Positions 2,184-19,522 of a stretch of DNA of 64,000 bases are shown here, in pieces. The stretch lies in NCBI GenBank assembly GCA_021815925.1, contig JAKAZL010000002.1, positions 84,529-148,528 on the forward strand, in the 5' to 3' direction. A program made the translations under genes and the position numbers. A model generated the notes under the pieces. The model saw only the letters and a list, made by a program, of their open reading frames with translations, searched no databases and had not been told where the DNA came from. How positions within the stretch are numbered: position 1 is the stretch's first letter; each line of letters opens with the position of its first letter. This DNA comes from Pseudomonadota bacterium (GTDB lineage Bacteria; Pseudomonadota; Gammaproteobacteria; Steroidobacterales; Steroidobacteraceae).

Positions 2184-3227
2184 TCAGTCACGGCTCGTCA
2201 ATTCCGGTCGGCCCTGGCGGGAGCGGTCGATTGTCAGATGCGGCGACAACGCCATGAGAAAGTCACTTGGATCGAACAGCTCCGCAGGCGCATACGCACC
2301 GCCGCGCACCGTGTGCATACCAAGCACCCGCAGGCAGCCCTCGACGATGATCGGGGCGGTAACCGCATAGATATCTTGTCCGCTGACGGCGATCTGCCAA
2401 GTATCGTCAGCGGCTTTGGCGTGCACCTCCATCAGGAAGCGTTGTGACGACCGGCCAGCCGGATCGCTTGCGGCCGGTCGTGGCGTCCGCTCGTCGCTCA
2501 GGTCGCGCAGTGGTGTCCGATTCATATAACTGCAGGCTTCGCGGACTGCGATGTGGCGGTGGATCGTGATCATCTCCGACAGCGGCACCGCCACCACCTC
2601 CTGCCGGCCGAATGGCTCGGCGAAGCGCCACTGCCGCACCGGTGCCGGCTGCGCAATGGGCACCAGATGCCCGTCCGTCACGACAAGACGCCGGGCGGTG
2701 TTGCGTTGTCCGGTCCGTCGCGTGCCCTCGGTCGGATGCCAAGAGTCGAGTGCCACGGCGATGTCGAGGGAATCGATGGACCTGAGCCCGCCGCTCAGCT
2801 CAGCGGCGAGCAGATCGGCGAGGCCGCCGTAAAATGCCAGCGCCGGAACGACGACGGTGCCGCCCCGCTCGGCGTCCTGATGGTAGGTCGCCAGCGACTG
2901 GCGGACCGAGCGTTGCTCCGCGGTAACGTCGAAATAGTGGATGCCGCAGCGCAATGCCGCCTCGATCACGGCCGGCGCCGTGTCCAGGAACGGGCCGGCG
3001 CAGTTGATCACCGCCTCGGCGCCGTGCAGAGCCCGATCGAGCGCATCCGGATCGTCACACGAGGCGGTCCGCCACGATCGGTCCGCGCCCACCCTGCCTG
3101 GACTGCTCTGCGGCCCACCGCTGCGGCCGATCGACACCGCCCGGCAGCCACGGCGCTCAAGCTCACGGACCACGAACGCACCCGTATGCCCGTTGGCGCC
3201 ATACACCGCAATGCTGGGGATGCTCAT
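2184..3227 (-). CDS. Saccharopine dehydrogenase-like NAD(P)-binding oxidoreductase
   Basis: MSIPSIAVYGANGHTGAFVVRELERRG Rossmann start, CAGPFLDTAPAVIEAALRCGIHYFDVTAE; start placed at internal ATG 3227. Confidence 0.8.
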   Translation of the reverse strand: MSIPSIAVYGANGHTGAFVVRELERRGCRAVSIGRSGGPQSSPGRVGADRSWRTASCDDPDALDRALHGAEAVINCAGPFLDTAPAVIEAALRCGIHYFDVTAEQRSVRQSLATYHQDAERGGTVVVPALAFYGGLADLLAAELSGGLRSIDSLDIAVALDSWHPTEGTRRTGQRNTARRLVVTDGHLVPIAQPAPVRQWRFAEPFGRQEVVAVPLSEMITIHRHIAVREACSYMNRTPLRDLSDERTPRPAASDPAGRSSQRFLMEVHAKAADDTWQIAVSGQDIYAVTAPIIVEGCLRVLGMHTVRGGAYAPAELFDPSDFLMALSPHLTIDRSRQGRPELTSRD

Positions 3228-3242
3228 CGTCGATCTCCAGAC

Positions 3243-3279
3243 GCTACCGATCGGTAGCGCATGATGATACCGATCGGTA
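3243..3279. promoter_or_regulatory. Tandem palindromic operators (GCTACCGATCGGTAGC and TACCGATCGGTA) in the TetR divergon
   Basis: Two copies of the palindrome TACCGATCGGTA, centres 23 bp apart, directly upstream of the oxidoreductase ATG and between divergent genes. Confidence 0.8.
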
Positions 3280-3364: not shown

Positions 3365-3994
3365 TTGACCACGGCACATGCCGAGGAGCGTGATACTGCA
3401 GCGCGCGTGCTGGCGACAGCATCGCGGCTGTTCTATGCGCACGGCGTCCGAGCCGTCGGCGTCGAATGGATCGTCGCCGAATCCGGCGTGGCCAAGACGA
3501 GCCTGTATCGGCACTTCCACACGAAGGATGACCTCATCGCCGCGTTCCTGGAGCGCGAAGACCGGGAGTTCTGGTCGCAGTGGGATGAGGTGATCAGTGC
3601 GGCCGCCGGCGATGCGATGCGCGAACTCATGGCCGTGCTCGAGTGGGTCGGGCAGCGCGTCAGCCGCGATGGCTACCGCGGCTGCCCGCAGATCAACGTG
3701 TCGGCTGAGTTTTCCGATCCCCATCATCCCGCACGAAAAATCCGCGCCCGCCACAAGGAAGCGATGTTCCAGCGGCTGCGGACGCTGGTGAGCCGGATCG
3801 GTGTGCATCACCCTGAGGATGTCGCGGCCCAGATCGCGCTGCTTCTGGACGGCGCGTTTTCGAGCGACGGGCGTCTGACGGATCGCGGGGCGAGCCGGAT
3901 TCTCCAGTCGGCCGCTCGGGCATTGATCGCTGCGCAGTCGTCACGCGGCGCGGCGGTCTCCGCACGAGCGAGAGCGACGCGTCAGGCGCGCTAG
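3365..3994 (+). CDS. TetR/AcrR family transcriptional regulator
   Basis: N-terminal HTH (ATASRLFYAHGVRAVGVEWIVAESGVAKTSLYRHFHTKDDLIAAFL); TTG start. Confidence 0.92.
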   Translation: MTTAHAEERDTAARVLATASRLFYAHGVRAVGVEWIVAESGVAKTSLYRHFHTKDDLIAAFLEREDREFWSQWDEVISAAAGDAMRELMAVLEWVGQRVSRDGYRGCPQINVSAEFSDPHHPARKIRARHKEAMFQRLRTLVSRIGVHHPEDVAAQIALLLDGAFSSDGRLTDRGASRILQSAARALIAAQSSRGAAVSARARATRQAR

Positions 3995-4093: not shown

Positions 4094-5368
4094 TTGGATT
4101 CCACGACCCGAGACCTCGCGCTGGGCAGCGCCGACGCCGCATTGGGCGTCGCCCCGGATCGGGCCACGCCGCAGATCGTCGCGATGGCCGCGACGCTCAC
4201 ATTCCTATCCGGTTACAACAATTTCATTCTCGGGATCGCGCTGCTGCAGCTGCACTCGGTCCTGAACCTGACGCCGGCCGAATCCGGCATCGTCCTCGCG
4301 GCGACATCCATTGGCATGCTGCTCGGCAGCGTGGTGCTCGGGCGCGTGGCGGATCTCATCGGCCGCAAGCGGGCGAGCATCATCGACCTCGGGGTGGTCG
4401 CTATTGCCGCCATTGCGTCGGCGGCGTCTGTTTCCGCGACACAGCTCGTGTTCTGGCGCCTGGTGCTCGGCGTGGGCCTCGGTGGCGGCTATCCCATCAG
4501 CGCCTCGTACGTGGCGGACATCGGGCCTGCCGCCACCCGCGGCGCCCGGCTGACGCTCGCCTCCAGCGGTTGGGGGGTCGGGGTCCTGGCGAGCGGATTC
4601 GTCGGCTGGCTGCTGCTCCGCGCGCCCGCCGCTGCCCTGGGCTGGCGGACGATGCTGGCCAGCGGAGCCATTCCGGCCGTGATCGCGCTCATCGCCCTGG
4701 CCCTGTGGCGCGTGCCCGAAGCGCCCGCCTGGGTTGAGGCGCAGTCGCTGCAGCCGCTGCCGCTGCGCACCCTGTTCACCCGCGAGAACTGGCCCCGGAC
4801 CCTGGTGATGATCGTGCCGTGGTTCCTGGTGGACATCCCGGTGTACGGCGTCGGTCTGCTGACTCCCACACTGCTCGGGCAGTTGCACCTCGGCGGTCTG
4901 CATGCGGTCATCCTGGGCTACTTCGTGGTTGCAGGATTCACCCTGATCGGCTGCCTGATTCCCTATCTGCTTATCGATCCGCTCGGACGGCGTCCTCTGC
5001 AGATCGGCGGATTCCTCGGCACGGCGGTGCTGATGGCCTGGTTGGCGCTCGACGGGCTCACTGCATCCTGGCTGTGGTCACTCGCGGTGTTCGTCGCGAT
5101 TCAGCTGTTCATCAACGCCGGACCCAACACGACCACCTGGATCGTGGCCGCCGAGCTGTTCCCGACCCGGCTGCGGGCGACGGCGCAAGGCGCGGCCACG
5201 TCCATCTCGCGGCTCGGCGCCATCTCCGGGACACTCCTTCTGCCGATCGTCGATGCGCGCGCCGGCCTGCCCACGGTCTTCGGCATCGCCGCCGCCGTCA
5301 GCCTGCTCGGTGCGCTGTTGACCTGGAGGTGGCTGCCGGAGACGGCGAGGGCACCGCTGGAGCCATGA
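4094..5368 (+). CDS. MFS transporter (sugar/phosphate:H+ symporter-like signatures)
   Basis: 12-TM MFS; GRVADLIGRKRA loop; LGVGLGGGYPISASYVADI and TTWIVAAELFPTRLRATAQG motifs resemble PHS/sugar-porter MFS. Confidence 0.9.
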   Translation: MDSTTRDLALGSADAALGVAPDRATPQIVAMAATLTFLSGYNNFILGIALLQLHSVLNLTPAESGIVLAATSIGMLLGSVVLGRVADLIGRKRASIIDLGVVAIAAIASAASVSATQLVFWRLVLGVGLGGGYPISASYVADIGPAATRGARLTLASSGWGVGVLASGFVGWLLLRAPAAALGWRTMLASGAIPAVIALIALALWRVPEAPAWVEAQSLQPLPLRTLFTRENWPRTLVMIVPWFLVDIPVYGVGLLTPTLLGQLHLGGLHAVILGYFVVAGFTLIGCLIPYLLIDPLGRRPLQIGGFLGTAVLMAWLALDGLTASWLWSLAVFVAIQLFINAGPNTTTWIVAAELFPTRLRATAQGAATSISRLGAISGTLLLPIVDARAGLPTVFGIAAAVSLLGALLTWRWLPETARAPLEP

Positions 5369-5506
5369 ACCGCGAGCCGGCTCCGATGCGCTGCGCGGTG
5401 TTGCGGTCCACTGCCGCCGTCCGTGCGCGGCGAGAAACGCGCCGGCGCGCGCCCGCTATACTTTTCCTCAAGAGCGACCCTGGAGCGCCTCGCGGAGACC
5501 GGCTCA

Positions 5507-6667
5507 ATGCGCAATGATCCTGGGGACTTAAGTGTGAGCATCCGGCGCCTCGACTGGACGCCGACGATGCTCGTGGTCGAGTGGTCGGACGGACGGCGGG
5601 CGGAGTTCGCCAGCATCTGGCTGCGCGACAATGTGCCGGCCGATCGCGATGCGTTCAGCGGTCAGCGCCTGATCGATGTGGCGGATCTGCCTGCCTCGCC
5701 CCGCATCCGCCGCGCCGAGTTGCGCGCCGGGGCTCTCAGCGTCGAGTGGGAGCAGGAGTGCGCGCAAGCCTGCTTCCCGAGTCAGTGGCTGGCGCGACAG
5801 GCGGCGGCGCTCGAGGACCCGAGCGAGCGCTGGCGAGCGAGGCTGTGGCCGGACGGCGCCGCGCGCGATGCGGTGCGAGACTTCGCGTGGGCGACCCCCG
5901 GGACGATGGGCGCAGATCCGGCGACGCTCGCCGACTGGCTGCGGCGCCTGATCGTCGAGGGCATGGCGTTTCTCGCCGACGTGCCGACGGAGCCCGGCAC
6001 GATCGTCTCGGCGCTCTCGCCCATCGGGCAGGTCGCGGCCACGAACTACGGGCTGGTGTTCGACGTCCGCTCGGTCGTCCAACCGGAGAATCTCGCCTAC
6101 TCGGACCGCGGCCTGGGTCTGCATACCGACAATCCCTACCGTGAGCCGGTGCCGGGCTTTCAGGCTCTGCACGTGCTCGTCGCCGCGCCCGACGGTGGGG
6201 AGAGCCTGTTCGCGGACGGTTTCGCGATCGCCGCGGCGCTGCGGCAGGAGTCACCCGGGGACTTCGAGCAGCTGACCCGTACCGCGGTGCCCTTCGCCTA
6301 CCGCTCGCGCGACGCTCTGCTGGAAGCCCGGCGGCCGCTGATCCAGCTGTCCTGCGCCGGTGAAGTGATCGCCGTGCATTACAACAGCCGCTCCATCGCG
6401 CCACTCCCGTTCGCGGCTGCCACGGCAGAGCGGTATTACGGGGCATACCGGCGCTTTGCCGAGATGCTCCGCGACCCCCGCTTCGCGCTGCGCTTCATGA
6501 TGCGCGCAGGCGATCTCGTCGTGTTCGACAATCAGCGCATTCTGCACGGCCGTACCGCATTCATTGCGGCGCGTCATCCGCGGCATCTGCAGGGCTGTTA
6601 CCTCACGCGCGATAGCGTCCGCAGCCGCGCCGCGCTGCTCGCTGCCGGGCCGGAGGGCGGCGCATGA
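5507..6667 (+). CDS. TauD/gamma-butyrobetaine-hydroxylase-like Fe(II)/2OG dioxygenase, putative TmpA-type organophosphonate hydroxylase
   Basis: GBBH-like N-terminal domain, GLHTDNPYREPVPGFQALH (HxD) and distal NQRILHGR; immediately followed (ATGA overlap) by a PhnZ/TmpB-like HD oxygenase. Start uncertain (ORF track begins at 5423). Confidence 0.8.
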   Translation: MRNDPGDLSVSIRRLDWTPTMLVVEWSDGRRAEFASIWLRDNVPADRDAFSGQRLIDVADLPASPRIRRAELRAGALSVEWEQECAQACFPSQWLARQAAALEDPSERWRARLWPDGAARDAVRDFAWATPGTMGADPATLADWLRRLIVEGMAFLADVPTEPGTIVSALSPIGQVAATNYGLVFDVRSVVQPENLAYSDRGLGLHTDNPYREPVPGFQALHVLVAAPDGGESLFADGFAIAAALRQESPGDFEQLTRTAVPFAYRSRDALLEARRPLIQLSCAGEVIAVHYNSRSIAPLPFAAATAERYYGAYRRFAEMLRDPRFALRFMMRAGDLVVFDNQRILHGRTAFIAARHPRHLQGCYLTRDSVRSRAALLAAGPEGGA

Positions 6668-7215
6668 GCGTGGTCGAGGAGGCGTTTGCGTACTATCGGC
6701 GGCGCGGCGACGCCGCCTACTTCGGCGAGCCCGTCTCGATGACCGAGCATGGCCTACAAGCCGCCCACTTCGCCCAGCTCGCCGGCGCGACTCCCCGTCT
6801 CATCGCCGCGGCACTGCTGCACGATATCGGCCACCTGATCGCCACCGTACCGGATGACATCGAGGACTGGACGGTCGATGCGCGCCACGAGGAAACGGGC
6901 GCCCGGTGGCTCGAGAGGCGCTTCGGCGTCCAGGTGTCCGAGCCGGTCCGGCTCCACGTCCCCGCCAAGCGCTATCTCTGCGCCGTGGATGAGGACTACT
7001 TCGCGCGCCTCAGCCCCGCATCGGTCACGACCCTGAGGCTGCAGGGCGGGCCGATGTCAGCGGCGCAGGTCGCCCGGTTCGAGGCGGAGCCGTTTCATCG
7101 CGACGCGGTCCTGCTGCGCCGCAGTGACGATCAAGGCAAGATCGCCGGTCTGACCACGCGCTCCCTCGAAGACTACCGGGAACTGCTCGAATCGCTTGTG
7201 CTCGGCGATGAGTGA
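6664..7215 (+). CDS. HD-domain mixed-valent diiron oxygenase-like protein (PhnZ/TmpB-type)
   Basis: YFGEPVSMTEHGLQAAHFA (Y-x-x-E plus His ligand), LLHDIGHLI HD motif; overlaps upstream dioxygenase by 4 nt. Confidence 0.8.
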   Translation: MSVVEEAFAYYRRRGDAAYFGEPVSMTEHGLQAAHFAQLAGATPRLIAAALLHDIGHLIATVPDDIEDWTVDARHEETGARWLERRFGVQVSEPVRLHVPAKRYLCAVDEDYFARLSPASVTTLRLQGGPMSAAQVARFEAEPFHRDAVLLRRSDDQGKIAGLTTRSLEDYRELLESLVLGDE

Positions 7216-7311
7216 CCCGAGGCGAGTGCGGGGCGCCGCGGCGAACCCGATGGTCGTTGCGCAGGCGCCCGCCGTGCCCGCAGCAACGCAAGATACGGGG
7301 GTTGGCCGCAC

Positions 7312-7776
7312 ATGACTCAACCGTTCCTCATCAGGTCCATCCGCCGCACGGACTACCTGCAATGGCGCCCGCTCTGGAACGGCTATAACGCGTTCTACGG
7401 CCGAAGCGGTCCGACGGCTCTGGCCGAGCCCATCACCGCCGAGACGTGGGAACGATTCTTCCGCCCGGCCGATCCGGTCCATGCGTTGGTCGCCGAGCAA
7501 GTCGGCGAGCTCGTCGGGCTCGCGCACTTCCTCATGCACCGCAGCACGACCCGGATCGACGATGTCTGCTACCTGCAGGATCTGTACACCGTCGAGCGCC
7601 TGCGCGGACTCGGCGTCGGTCGGCGGCTGATCGAAGGGGTATACGCGGCGGCCCGCACCGCGGGATGCGGTCGGGTTTACTGGCAGACGCAGGCTACCAA
7701 CCGCACTGCGCGGGCGCTCTACGACAGGATTGCGGAACACCGCGGGTTCATCGTCTACACGCACGAACTCGATTGA
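7312..7776 (+). CDS. GNAT family N-acetyltransferase
   Basis: VCYLQDLYTVERLRGLGVGRRLIEGVYAAARTAGCGRVYWQTQATNRTARALYDRIAEHRGFIVY. Confidence 0.88.
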   Translation: MTQPFLIRSIRRTDYLQWRPLWNGYNAFYGRSGPTALAEPITAETWERFFRPADPVHALVAEQVGELVGLAHFLMHRSTTRIDDVCYLQDLYTVERLRGLGVGRRLIEGVYAAARTAGCGRVYWQTQATNRTARALYDRIAEHRGFIVYTHELD

Positions 7777-16988: not shown

Positions 16989-18137
16989 TCAGCCGGTCTC
17001 GGCCAACTCCTCCTCCAGCCCGATCGAGGCGCTGCGGCCGGCGAGCAGCGCGCGATAGATGCCGAGCTGACGCTGGAAGATCCTCTGCCACGTGAAGCGC
17101 TGCAGCACGCGCTCGCGGGCGCTGCGCCCCAGTGCGCCCAGATCGCGTTCGTACAGCGCCGCCACCGCATCGGCGAGACTGCGGGCATCGTCCGGCTCGG
17201 CGAGCAACCCGCAGCGCTCGTTGAGCAGCTCGGGCACCGCCCCGGAGCGCACCGCCACGATCGGGCGGCCGCAGGCCATCGCCTCCAGGATCACCAGGCC
17301 GAATGTCTCACGCGTCCCGGCATGCACGAGCGCATCGCTCGAGGCCAGCCACTGCGCCAGCTCCACGCTGTCGCGTCGGTAAGGCAGCAGCGTGACGTTG
17401 GGCGCGAGCCGCCGGGTGCGGTGTCCGCCGATCATGAGCAGGTGGTAGGGCCGCCCCAGGTGCGTAAAGGCCCGCCGCAGCACCGGTACGTTCTTCTCGT
17501 CGGTGAACCGGCCGGCGTACACCAGCACCCGGGTGCAAGCGGGCAGGCCCAGCCGCTCACGCAGCCATGCGCCCCGGCGGCGCGGATGAAAAACCGCCTC
17601 GTCGACCCCGAGCGGCTGATGCATGGTGTTGGCGACCCCGAGCTGCCCGAGCAACTCGACCATGAGACGGCTCGGCGCGAACACCACGTCGAATCGCTCG
17701 TACAACCCGCGCACGTAGTGTTCCGCCAGGCGCTCGCTCAGCCGGCCGCCGAAGCGCCGGCCGAGGATGCGCGGCAGGTCGGAGTGAAAGAACGCCGCGC
17801 ACGGAATGGCTCGCCTGTGTGCCACCCGGCACGCGGCCCAGGCCGGGTGAAAGGCATCTCCGGCCTCGAGCAGGTCGGGCTCGAGCGCATCGAGCAGTCG
17901 CGCCCAGCGACGCGTGCTGAGCGGCAGGCGGTAATTGAACGAACCGGGCACCGGCAGGCCCGCCAGCGTGGAGACCCCGCCCGGCTCCAGGTGCTCGCTG
18001 CGGCCCGGCACGAGCAGCGTGTGCTGCCAGCCCGGCTGGGCGGCGAGCCAGGCGTGCTTGGCCGTCAGGTAGCGGCGCACGCCGCCGCTCGTCGGGGAGT
18101 AGAACAGGGTGGTGTCGACGAGGCGGCACGGGTGCAT
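16989..18137 (-). CDS. Glycosyltransferase family 4-like (GT-B) protein
   Basis: VFAPSRLMVELL; RVLVYAGRFTDEKNVPVLRRAF; GTRETFGLVILEAMACGRPIVAVRSGAVPEL. Confidence 0.9.
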   Translation of the reverse strand: MHPCRLVDTTLFYSPTSGGVRRYLTAKHAWLAAQPGWQHTLLVPGRSEHLEPGGVSTLAGLPVPGSFNYRLPLSTRRWARLLDALEPDLLEAGDAFHPAWAACRVAHRRAIPCAAFFHSDLPRILGRRFGGRLSERLAEHYVRGLYERFDVVFAPSRLMVELLGQLGVANTMHQPLGVDEAVFHPRRRGAWLRERLGLPACTRVLVYAGRFTDEKNVPVLRRAFTHLGRPYHLLMIGGHRTRRLAPNVTLLPYRRDSVELAQWLASSDALVHAGTRETFGLVILEAMACGRPIVAVRSGAVPELLNERCGLLAEPDDARSLADAVAALYERDLGALGRSARERVLQRFTWQRIFQRQLGIYRALLAGRSASIGLEEELAETG

Positions 18138-18226: not shown

Positions 18227-19522
18227 TTACGCGGCCGACTGGGTCCGTCGCCGCGTACCGCTGCGCAGCGCGAGGCAGGCCGAGATCAACTCGTCGGCGC
18301 TGCGGAAACGGCCCTCGCGCTGCTTGGCGAGCAGCCGCGCAAGCAGCGGCGCGTAGCCGCTCACCGCCGGCGGCAGCCGCGGCGGCGTGGCGTTGACGTG
18401 CTGTTGCAGCACCTCCATGGCCGTGTTGCCCACGAACGGCTTGCGGCCGGTCAGCATCTCGTGAAAGATGACACCGAGGCTGTACAGGTCCGAACGCGGA
18501 TCCAACTTCTCGCCGAGCGCCTGCTCGGGGCTCATGTAGTAGGGCGAGCCGCGCAACACGCCGGTGTAGGTGCTGTGGTGGCTGACATCCAACTGTCGGG
18601 CGAGCCCGAAGTCGATCAGCACGATGTTGTCGTTCTCGCGCAGCATGACGTTCGGCGGCTTCAGGTCCCGGTGCAGCAGCCCCGCCCGGTGAACCACGGC
18701 GAGCGCGCCGGCGATCTTCTCCAGGAAACGCAGCGCTTCGGACTCGGTCACCCCGACCTGCATGCGAGCCTTGAGGTCCCCGCGCGGGAAGAACTCCATC
18801 GCCAGGTACTCGTAGCCGTCCTCGATGCCGTGATCGAAGATGCGCACCACGGCCGGATCGTGCACCGCGAGGATCGCCTGGTACTCGCGCTCCAGCGCCT
18901 GCTTGGCGCGGTCCTCGCAGGGCACCTTGCTCACCTTCAGCGCCACGTCGGTGTCGAACTCGCGGCTCTCGGCGAGGTACACGATGGCCTTGTCCGACTC
19001 GCTCAGCCGCCGGATGATCTGATAGCCGCTGATGGTCGGATGAGCCGTGCTGACCGGAGTGGGAGACGATGGGCTGGGCTTGTCCGGTTCGGCCTCGGTC
19101 ACGGCCGGTTCCGGGATGGCGGTTCGCTTGAGCGCCTGGAAGGCGAGATCGAGCGAGACCTGTAGCAGAGCCGGCGTGAGCAGCCGCTTGGGAAGGTAGT
19201 CGATGGCGCCGGCGCGCAGCGCCTGCACCGCGGTGAGCTCGTCACCGCCCTCGGCGAGCACGACCAGGACCGGGGGCGTTTCCCCGCAGCACAGGGCGCG
19301 CGCCTGCTTCAGTCCCTCGGGGGCCTCTTCCTGGCCGCCCGGGCCGAAATCCGCCACCAGGACGAGCACGTCGCAGGGGCGACCCTCGAGCGCGCCGTCC
19401 TGGGTGGGGTCGAGTGTGTCGACGCTGACCTGGGGATAGAGGATACCGAGGTGCAGCCGCAGCCACTCGCGATACTTGGCATCGCGATCGACGATCAACA
19501 GGCGTATCGCTGCGGGATTCAT
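18227..19522 (-). CDS. Receiver-like domain fused to Ser/Thr protein kinase
   Basis: N-term RLLIVDRDAKYREWLRLHLG...AGAIDYLPKRLL; kinase motifs ALKVSK, HRDLKPPNVML, IDFGLARQ, GSPYYMSPEQ. Confidence 0.9.
   Translation of the reverse strand: MNPAAIRLLIVDRDAKYREWLRLHLGILYPQVSVDTLDPTQDGALEGRPCDVLVLVADFGPGGQEEAPEGLKQARALCCGETPPVLVVLAEGGDELTAVQALRAGAIDYLPKRLLTPALLQVSLDLAFQALKRTAIPEPAVTEAEPDKPSPSSPTPVSTAHPTISGYQIIRRLSESDKAIVYLAESREFDTDVALKVSKVPCEDRAKQALEREYQAILAVHDPAVVRIFDHGIEDGYEYLAMEFFPRGDLKARMQVGVTESEALRFLEKIAGALAVVHRAGLLHRDLKPPNVMLRENDNIVLIDFGLARQLDVSHHSTYTGVLRGSPYYMSPEQALGEKLDPRSDLYSLGVIFHEMLTGRKPFVGNTAMEVLQQHVNATPPRLPPAVSGYAPLLARLLAKQREGRFRSADELISACLALRSGTRRRTQSAA

Follow-up and report, generated by a model that had tools for sequence, protein, structure and literature searches.

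Oxidative cleavage of carbon-phosphorus (C-P) bonds is known in detail from only a few enzyme pairs, most of them marine. Closest to the locus described here are TmpA/TmpB of Leisingera caerulea, which degrade 2-trimethylaminoethylphosphonate (TMAEP), PhnY/PhnZ, which act on 2-aminoethylphosphonate, and GmPhnY*/GmPhnZ1 of Gimesia maris, which act on methylphosphonate. TmpA/TmpB is a two-gene pair of a TauD/GBBH-type 2-oxoglutarate (2OG) enzyme and an HD oxygenase; PhnY belongs to another 2OG family, with a PhyH-type domain. We analysed a 64,000-nt stretch of a Steroidobacteraceae genome (GenBank assembly GCA_021815925.1, contig JAKAZL010000002.1, positions 84,529 to 148,528), hereafter the window, in which overlapping genes encode an Fe(II)/2OG dioxygenase (DIOX-A) and an HD-domain protein (HD-A). 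This coupled pair of iron enzymes very probably frees phosphorus from a phosphonate. The window comes from a metagenome-assembled genome (MAG) of 2.73 Mb (contig C112, completeness 93.8%) of a soil or freshwater bacterium. Related genomes in the public collection are MAGs of Gammaproteobacteria, and those with a family-level name are Steroidobacteraceae.

By sequence, predicted model and residues, HD-A is a TmpB/PhnZ-type HD-domain oxygenase with a putative mixed-valent diiron site and predicted C-P cleavage activity. It is closer to TmpB than to PhnZ. Its best NCBIfam matches were Phn-HD (203.9 bits), TmpB (186.5 bits) and PhnZ1 (174 bits), the comparison with the G. maris system covering the HD side only, and its only significant relatives of solved structure were TmpB (3e-39) and then PhnZ. 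The predicted model (mean predicted local distance difference test score, pLDDT, 92) returned TmpB (6npa) and PhnZ as top fold matches, with template modelling (TM) scores of 0.83-0.87 by query length and 34-36% identity to PhnZ in the fold alignment; all other folds had E 0.07 or worse. The roles of the diiron ligand set and of the Tyr-x-x-Glu (YxxE) switch in such enzymes have been described (PMC8177086). HD-A has all six ligands (H29, H53, D54, H75, H98 and D155, arranged H...HD...H...H...D), identical to those of TmpB, as well as the switch (Y19, E22) and the extra His seen in the TIGR03276 group (H57). The initial annotation had named clustering outside PhnZ/TmpB or a missing ligand set as grounds against this reading, and neither was seen. 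Residues K102, S120, T123, Q127 and R152 match K108, S126, T129, Q133 and R158 of PhnZ, which we take to be its phosphonate-contacting residues. Among 85 aligned homologues, nearly all keep the ligands, the switch and these contacts.

The pocket of DIOX-A, as far as its residues tell, is of the TmpA type and not of the gamma-butyrobetaine hydroxylase (BBOX) type. TmpA holds the phosphonate with N187, N287 and R288, of which N187 and R288 form hydrogen bonds to it; BBOX uses two asparagines (PMC9296572). DIOX-A retains N187 and R288 (TmpA numbering), whereas BBOX has Ala at 288 in the alignment. At the three positions of the aromatic cage that were compared, DIOX-A has Y, F and Y, the same as in TmpA, and BBOX belongs to the same fold family with a trimethylammonium cage. 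The Fe-ligand HxD motif is present, and H347 is invariant across the clade alignment. TmpA was the best relative both in NCBIfam (355 bits, against 306 bits for BBOX, TIGR02409) and in the PDB (7e-74, against 4e-35 for BBOX). The initial annotation had allowed for a TmpA- or a PhnY-type first enzyme; only TauD and GBBH-like_N domains were matched and no PhyH domain, and the PhnY alternative was dropped. The pair thus differs from PhnY/PhnZ in its dioxygenase, while its HD protein resembles PhnZ in predicted chemistry, ligands and substrate-binding residues.

The strongest evidence that DIOX-A would act on a phosphonate is a rule linking residues to gene partners, drawn from a tally of more than 100 dioxygenase homologues. 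Where N187 and R288 occur together, a TmpB-type HD gene lies in the same locus in 87 of 93 cases; contig ends truncate at least four of the remaining six loci. Homologues without R288 had no HD gene in 14 of 16 cases, and the BBOX-like enzymes of the set mostly stand without an adjoining one, unlike the window pair. A third group, with D187 and R288, pairs with a different HD protein (HD-B).

The gene pair is conserved together with its surroundings in the closest relative, L072, which carries the same five genes (TetR, major facilitator superfamily (MFS) transporter, dioxygenase, HD protein and GNAT) in identical order (Table 1). Between the two, divergence from TetR to GNAT is 0.21-0.27 at third codon positions and 0.03-0.08 at second positions, and the intergenic gaps are only 65-74% identical; therefore all five genes evolve under purifying selection. 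The longest open reading frame of DIOX-A starts at a GTG at 5423, its best start being the ATG at 5507, and the ATGA overlap with HD-A reads ...GGCGGCGCATGAGCG.... The four reading frames from the MFS gene to the GNAT gene lie where the initial annotation put them, and the motifs that it quoted occur in the translations; the family matches in Table 1 are too strong to be due to chance.

Table 1. Features of the gene row and its putative operators (positions in the window)
Feature	Position	Strand	Evidence
TetR-family regulator, head of the gene row	3365..3994	+	TetR_N 1e-12; adjoins MFS in L072 too
MFS transporter, phosphate:H+ symporter-like, candidate importer	4094..5368	+	Pfam MFS 3e-41; structure match 7sp5 6e-33
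Fe(II)/2-oxoglutarate dioxygenase, TmpA-like (DIOX-A), predicted C1 hydroxylation of phosphonate	5507..6667	+	Pfam TauD 4e-45, GBBH-like_N 8e-8; NCBIfam TmpA 3e-106
HD-domain oxygenase, TmpB/PhnZ-like (HD-A), predicted oxidative C-P cleavage releasing phosphate	6664..7215	+	Pfam HD 4e-6; NCBIfam Phn-HD 1e-60
GNAT acetyltransferase	7312..7776	+	Acetyltransf_1 1e-15; seen only in window and L072
Two perfect 12-bp palindromes TACCGATCGGTA, likely TetR operators	3245-3256, 3268-3279	n/a	Palindrome counts in window

From the observed gene identities, residues, coupling and conservation we infer a reaction, a substrate, a mode of transport and a mode of regulation. It is probable that the genes encode a two-enzyme oxidative pathway giving phosphate, with a quaternary (N-methylated) 2-aminoethylphosphonate as the most likely substrate. 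DIOX-A would hydroxylate the carbon adjoining phosphorus with the aid of Fe(II), 2-oxoglutarate and O2, and HD-A, through a mixed-valent diiron site, would then split the C-P bond of the hydroxyphosphonate into phosphate and a carboxylate. The favoured candidate is TMAEP, which would yield glycine betaine; our confidence in TMAEP itself is evenly balanced, any aminoalkylphosphonate being possible. Uptake would proceed through the phosphate-symporter-like MFS under TetR control.

A quaternary amine is indicated by the aromatic cage taken together with two associations of MttB-type methyltransferases. In a sister sub-clade (L083, L089 and L102), an MttB-type gene stands divergent from an operon of a flavin mononucleotide (FMN)-dependent hydroxyacid dehydrogenase, the dioxygenase and the HD protein; genes for cobyric acid synthase and for what looks like a corrinoid-type ABC transporter adjoin. 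Within the genus, MttB also occurs in all 25 genomes that have HD-A and in 14 of the 33 that lack it, a co-occurrence that is confounded by common ancestry and to that extent counts against its use as support. The MttB of the window's own genome was rejected as a direct link; it is a remote paralogue encoded on a 3.4-kb contig and shares only 25% identity with the operon-adjacent MttB of L089.

Across the clade, the dioxygenase-HD pair is retained in 53 of 56 loci, and a GlpT/PgtP-type (organophosphate-antiporter-type) MFS stands beside both genes in 47 of 56. The gene set of the initial annotation, in which a phosphate-symporter-like MFS and a GNAT accompany the pair, is therefore not the conserved operon; TetR, this MFS and GNAT recur only in the closest relative. 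GlpT and UhpT carry the phosphonate fosfomycin, so a GlpT/PgtP-type transporter is a sensible neighbour for the pair. The window and L072 lack one at the locus and have the phosphate-symporter-like MFS instead, and none was found in the window's own genome by a search run without a positive control. The window-type MFS is confined to that genome and G013, with no other occurrence among 60 related genomes searched. Its best solved-structure matches are phosphate transporters (7sp5, a fungal symporter); five of the six presumed phosphate contacts have equivalents (Y150, W320, D324, Y328 and N431 kept, Q177 lost), and two aspartates that we take to form the proton site, D45 and D149, have none. 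A role as importer is plausible from these matches, and uptake in this lineage has probably switched from the GlpT/PgtP-type to the phosphate-symporter-like MFS. As a dedicated phosphonate uptake system, the role first proposed for it, the transporter has its closest kin, phosphate:H+ symporters, in its favour, and its restriction to the window and one near relative against it.

A CehA/McbA-type metallohydrolase with ATGA overlaps often precedes the GlpT/PgtP-type unit. At L036:9318-14039, a CehA/McbA-family metallohydrolase, an organophosphate-antiporter-type MFS and the dioxygenase are joined by ATGA-type overlaps, and the HD gene comes next, a layout that suggests hydrolysis of a phosphonate ester ahead of uptake or cleavage. 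At L033, a GntR regulator closest to the phosphonate regulator PhnR adjoins the GlpT/PgtP-type MFS. HD-A lies directly behind such an MFS in L044, L045, L050, L051, L054 and L056, whose genomes have no close DIOX-A elsewhere; these loci perhaps serve uptake of an already hydroxylated phosphonate. In the window, the gap between tetR and a divergent gene of the saccharopine-dehydrogenase-like (NAD-binding) kind (2184-3227, start 3227) holds the two palindromes at a spacing of 23 bp. They are the only perfect copies in the window, where four matches at two or fewer mismatches compare with 0.89 expected, and they are likely candidate TetR operators in a typical arrangement. The GNAT had been thought to modify the aminophosphonate or its product. 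This idea is unsupported: the protein shows no phosphonate-specific signal, reached just 20 bits on the model of aminoalkylphosphonate N-acetyltransferase (PhnO-like), whose cut-off is 142, and is restricted to two genomes. No defence-system match was obtained. The lack of C-P lyase and phn ABC transporter genes in the window, noted initially, is in line with the own MAG (93.8% complete), in which PhnJ had no match and PhnE none above cut-off. No RNA families or tRNAs were found in the window.

Several points weigh against a TmpA/TmpB-like pathway for a quaternary aminophosphonate. HD-A falls narrowly under the Phn-HD cut-off (TIGR03276, 214.6 bits; clade member L054 scores 215.6 bits) and misses that of the TmpB equivalog (NF049941, 300 bits), as it does that of PhnZ1 (300 bits); DIOX-A misses the cut-off of the TmpA equivalog (NF049936, 400 bits), and equally that of TIGR02409 (414.75 bits). 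N287 of TmpA is replaced by Ser (S294) in the window protein; this position is Asn in L072 and Ser in roughly one third of clade members. The dioxygenase model (mean pLDDT 61) is too poor for use, HD-A without DIOX-A in six genomes means that pairing is not obligatory, and all members are known from MAGs, by genes alone. In the phylogeny, DIOX-A belongs to a tightly knit clade comprising 55 sequences from Steroidobacteraceae-type MAGs (Shimodaira-Hasegawa-like approximate likelihood ratio test, SH-aLRT, 100), identity dropping from 52% to about 42% for nearly all sequences outside it, and this clade stays apart when 16 bona fide TmpA are added. In approximately unbiased (AU) tests, its union with TmpA was neither rejected nor shown (p 0.13), and union with human BBOX, represented by one sequence, was not rejected (p 0.29), since each outgroup is a single long branch; topology alone therefore does not settle the placement that the initial annotation had sought from it. 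DIOX-A thus lies outside strict curated TmpA membership and resembles TmpA in its working parts. Because both enzymes are under the curated cut-offs and the dioxygenase has a clade of its own, the substrate is one that we infer, as is the quaternary or amino alkylphosphonate first suggested.

These same features, namely the missed TmpA/TmpB cut-offs, the separate clade and the change of N287 to Ser, along with Thr at PhnZ position 129 of HD-A (as in PhnZ; Ser in TmpB), would also suit the same chemistry on a phosphonate without a quaternary amine, such as 2-aminoethylphosphonate, its N-mono- or dimethyl forms, or methylphosphonate. We regard this as possible but rather unlikely, given the retained cage and the MttB association within the lineage. 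Likewise possible but rather unlikely is that DIOX-A/HD-A constitute a fifth, substrate-distinct oxidative phosphonate pathway of soil and peat Steroidobacteraceae, acting on a phosphonate new as a substrate. In that reading a CehA/McbA-type hydrolase would release the phosphonate from an ester and a GlpT/PgtP-type importer would supply it, the importer having changed in the window lineage. A resistance-like TetR-MFS-GNAT cassette, in which the pair destroys a toxic phosphonate that the MFS exports, would account for the two putative operators upstream and for the cassette adjoining the pair only in the window sub-lineage; it is improbable, however, since the MFS resembles phosphate:H+ importers and not drug exporters, and the pair is normally accompanied by a GlpT/PgtP-type transporter. 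That DIOX-A is a carnitine-pathway gamma-butyrobetaine hydroxylase beside an unrelated HD phosphohydrolase we consider highly improbable: the TauD and GBBH-like_N domains and the AU result with human BBOX would fit, but TmpA is far the better match in hidden Markov model and PDB searches, R288 is present, HD-A has the oxygenase switch and ligands, and the coupling of the pair is conserved. The TmpA-TmpB-like oxidative pair of the initial annotation is accordingly retained, HD-A falling with TmpB/PhnZ in sequence and fold and the DIOX-A pocket with TmpA.

Other pairs and fusions were also seen. DIOX-B/HD-B (L033:2997-6343; L062-L065; L028, L030, L031; L194, L202) is spread well beyond the genus; DIOX-B is TmpA-like with D at 187, P at 287 and R at 288, and HD-B (MxSFRxMxDGTREDY...) has the complete conserved H...HD...H...H...D set, its curated family match being absent or weak. 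It is possibly another C-X-cleaving oxygenase pathway, and arguably a more open question than DIOX-A/HD-A. At L033:1441-9413 and in L057 the two pairs are neighbours; the other genes there encode a PhnR-like GntR regulator, a GlpT/PgtP-type MFS, a GFA protein, a hydroxyisobutyrate-dehydrogenase-like enzyme and a further 2OG enzyme. At L105:4341-5582, L091:4888-6150 and L106:7104-8348, HD-A is fused to about 230 extra residues and has a transporter gene ahead of it. In L105 the added part was identified as a phosphatase domain of the haloacid-dehalogenase type, and the gene ahead as a Na+:dicarboxylate symporter. At L205:6030-9569 (Labrenzia plasmid NZ_CP045345), consecutive genes encode LysR, a TauD-type dioxygenase, an HD protein and an alkaline-phosphatase-family protein, with overlaps among the last three, in what appears to be another version of an oxidative phosphonate pathway. 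Elsewhere in the window, 183-1172 encodes a GNAT acetyltransferase domain fused to a MarR-type regulator, and 16989-18137 a glycosyltransferase near N-acetylglucosaminyl phosphatidylglycerol synthase (437 bits, cut-off 480), adjoined by a PknB-type kinase gene (18227-19522).

Judged by its genes, the window pair is a previously unstudied branch of the known TmpA/TmpB pathway in which the usual partner transporter has been exchanged; it shares the TmpA/TmpB gene arrangement, ligands, YxxE loop, cage, N187 and R288, and differs in its scores, clade, position 287 and transporters. The clade has its own transporter type, and C-P lyase was not found in the window's own genome. The N187 and R288 rule tells phosphonate dioxygenases apart from proteins that carry a gamma-butyrobetaine hydroxylase annotation. 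A whole clade of this kind, in uncultured Gammaproteobacteria from soil, peat and freshwater, would add those habitats to the ones in which phosphonates are used in a substrate-specific way.

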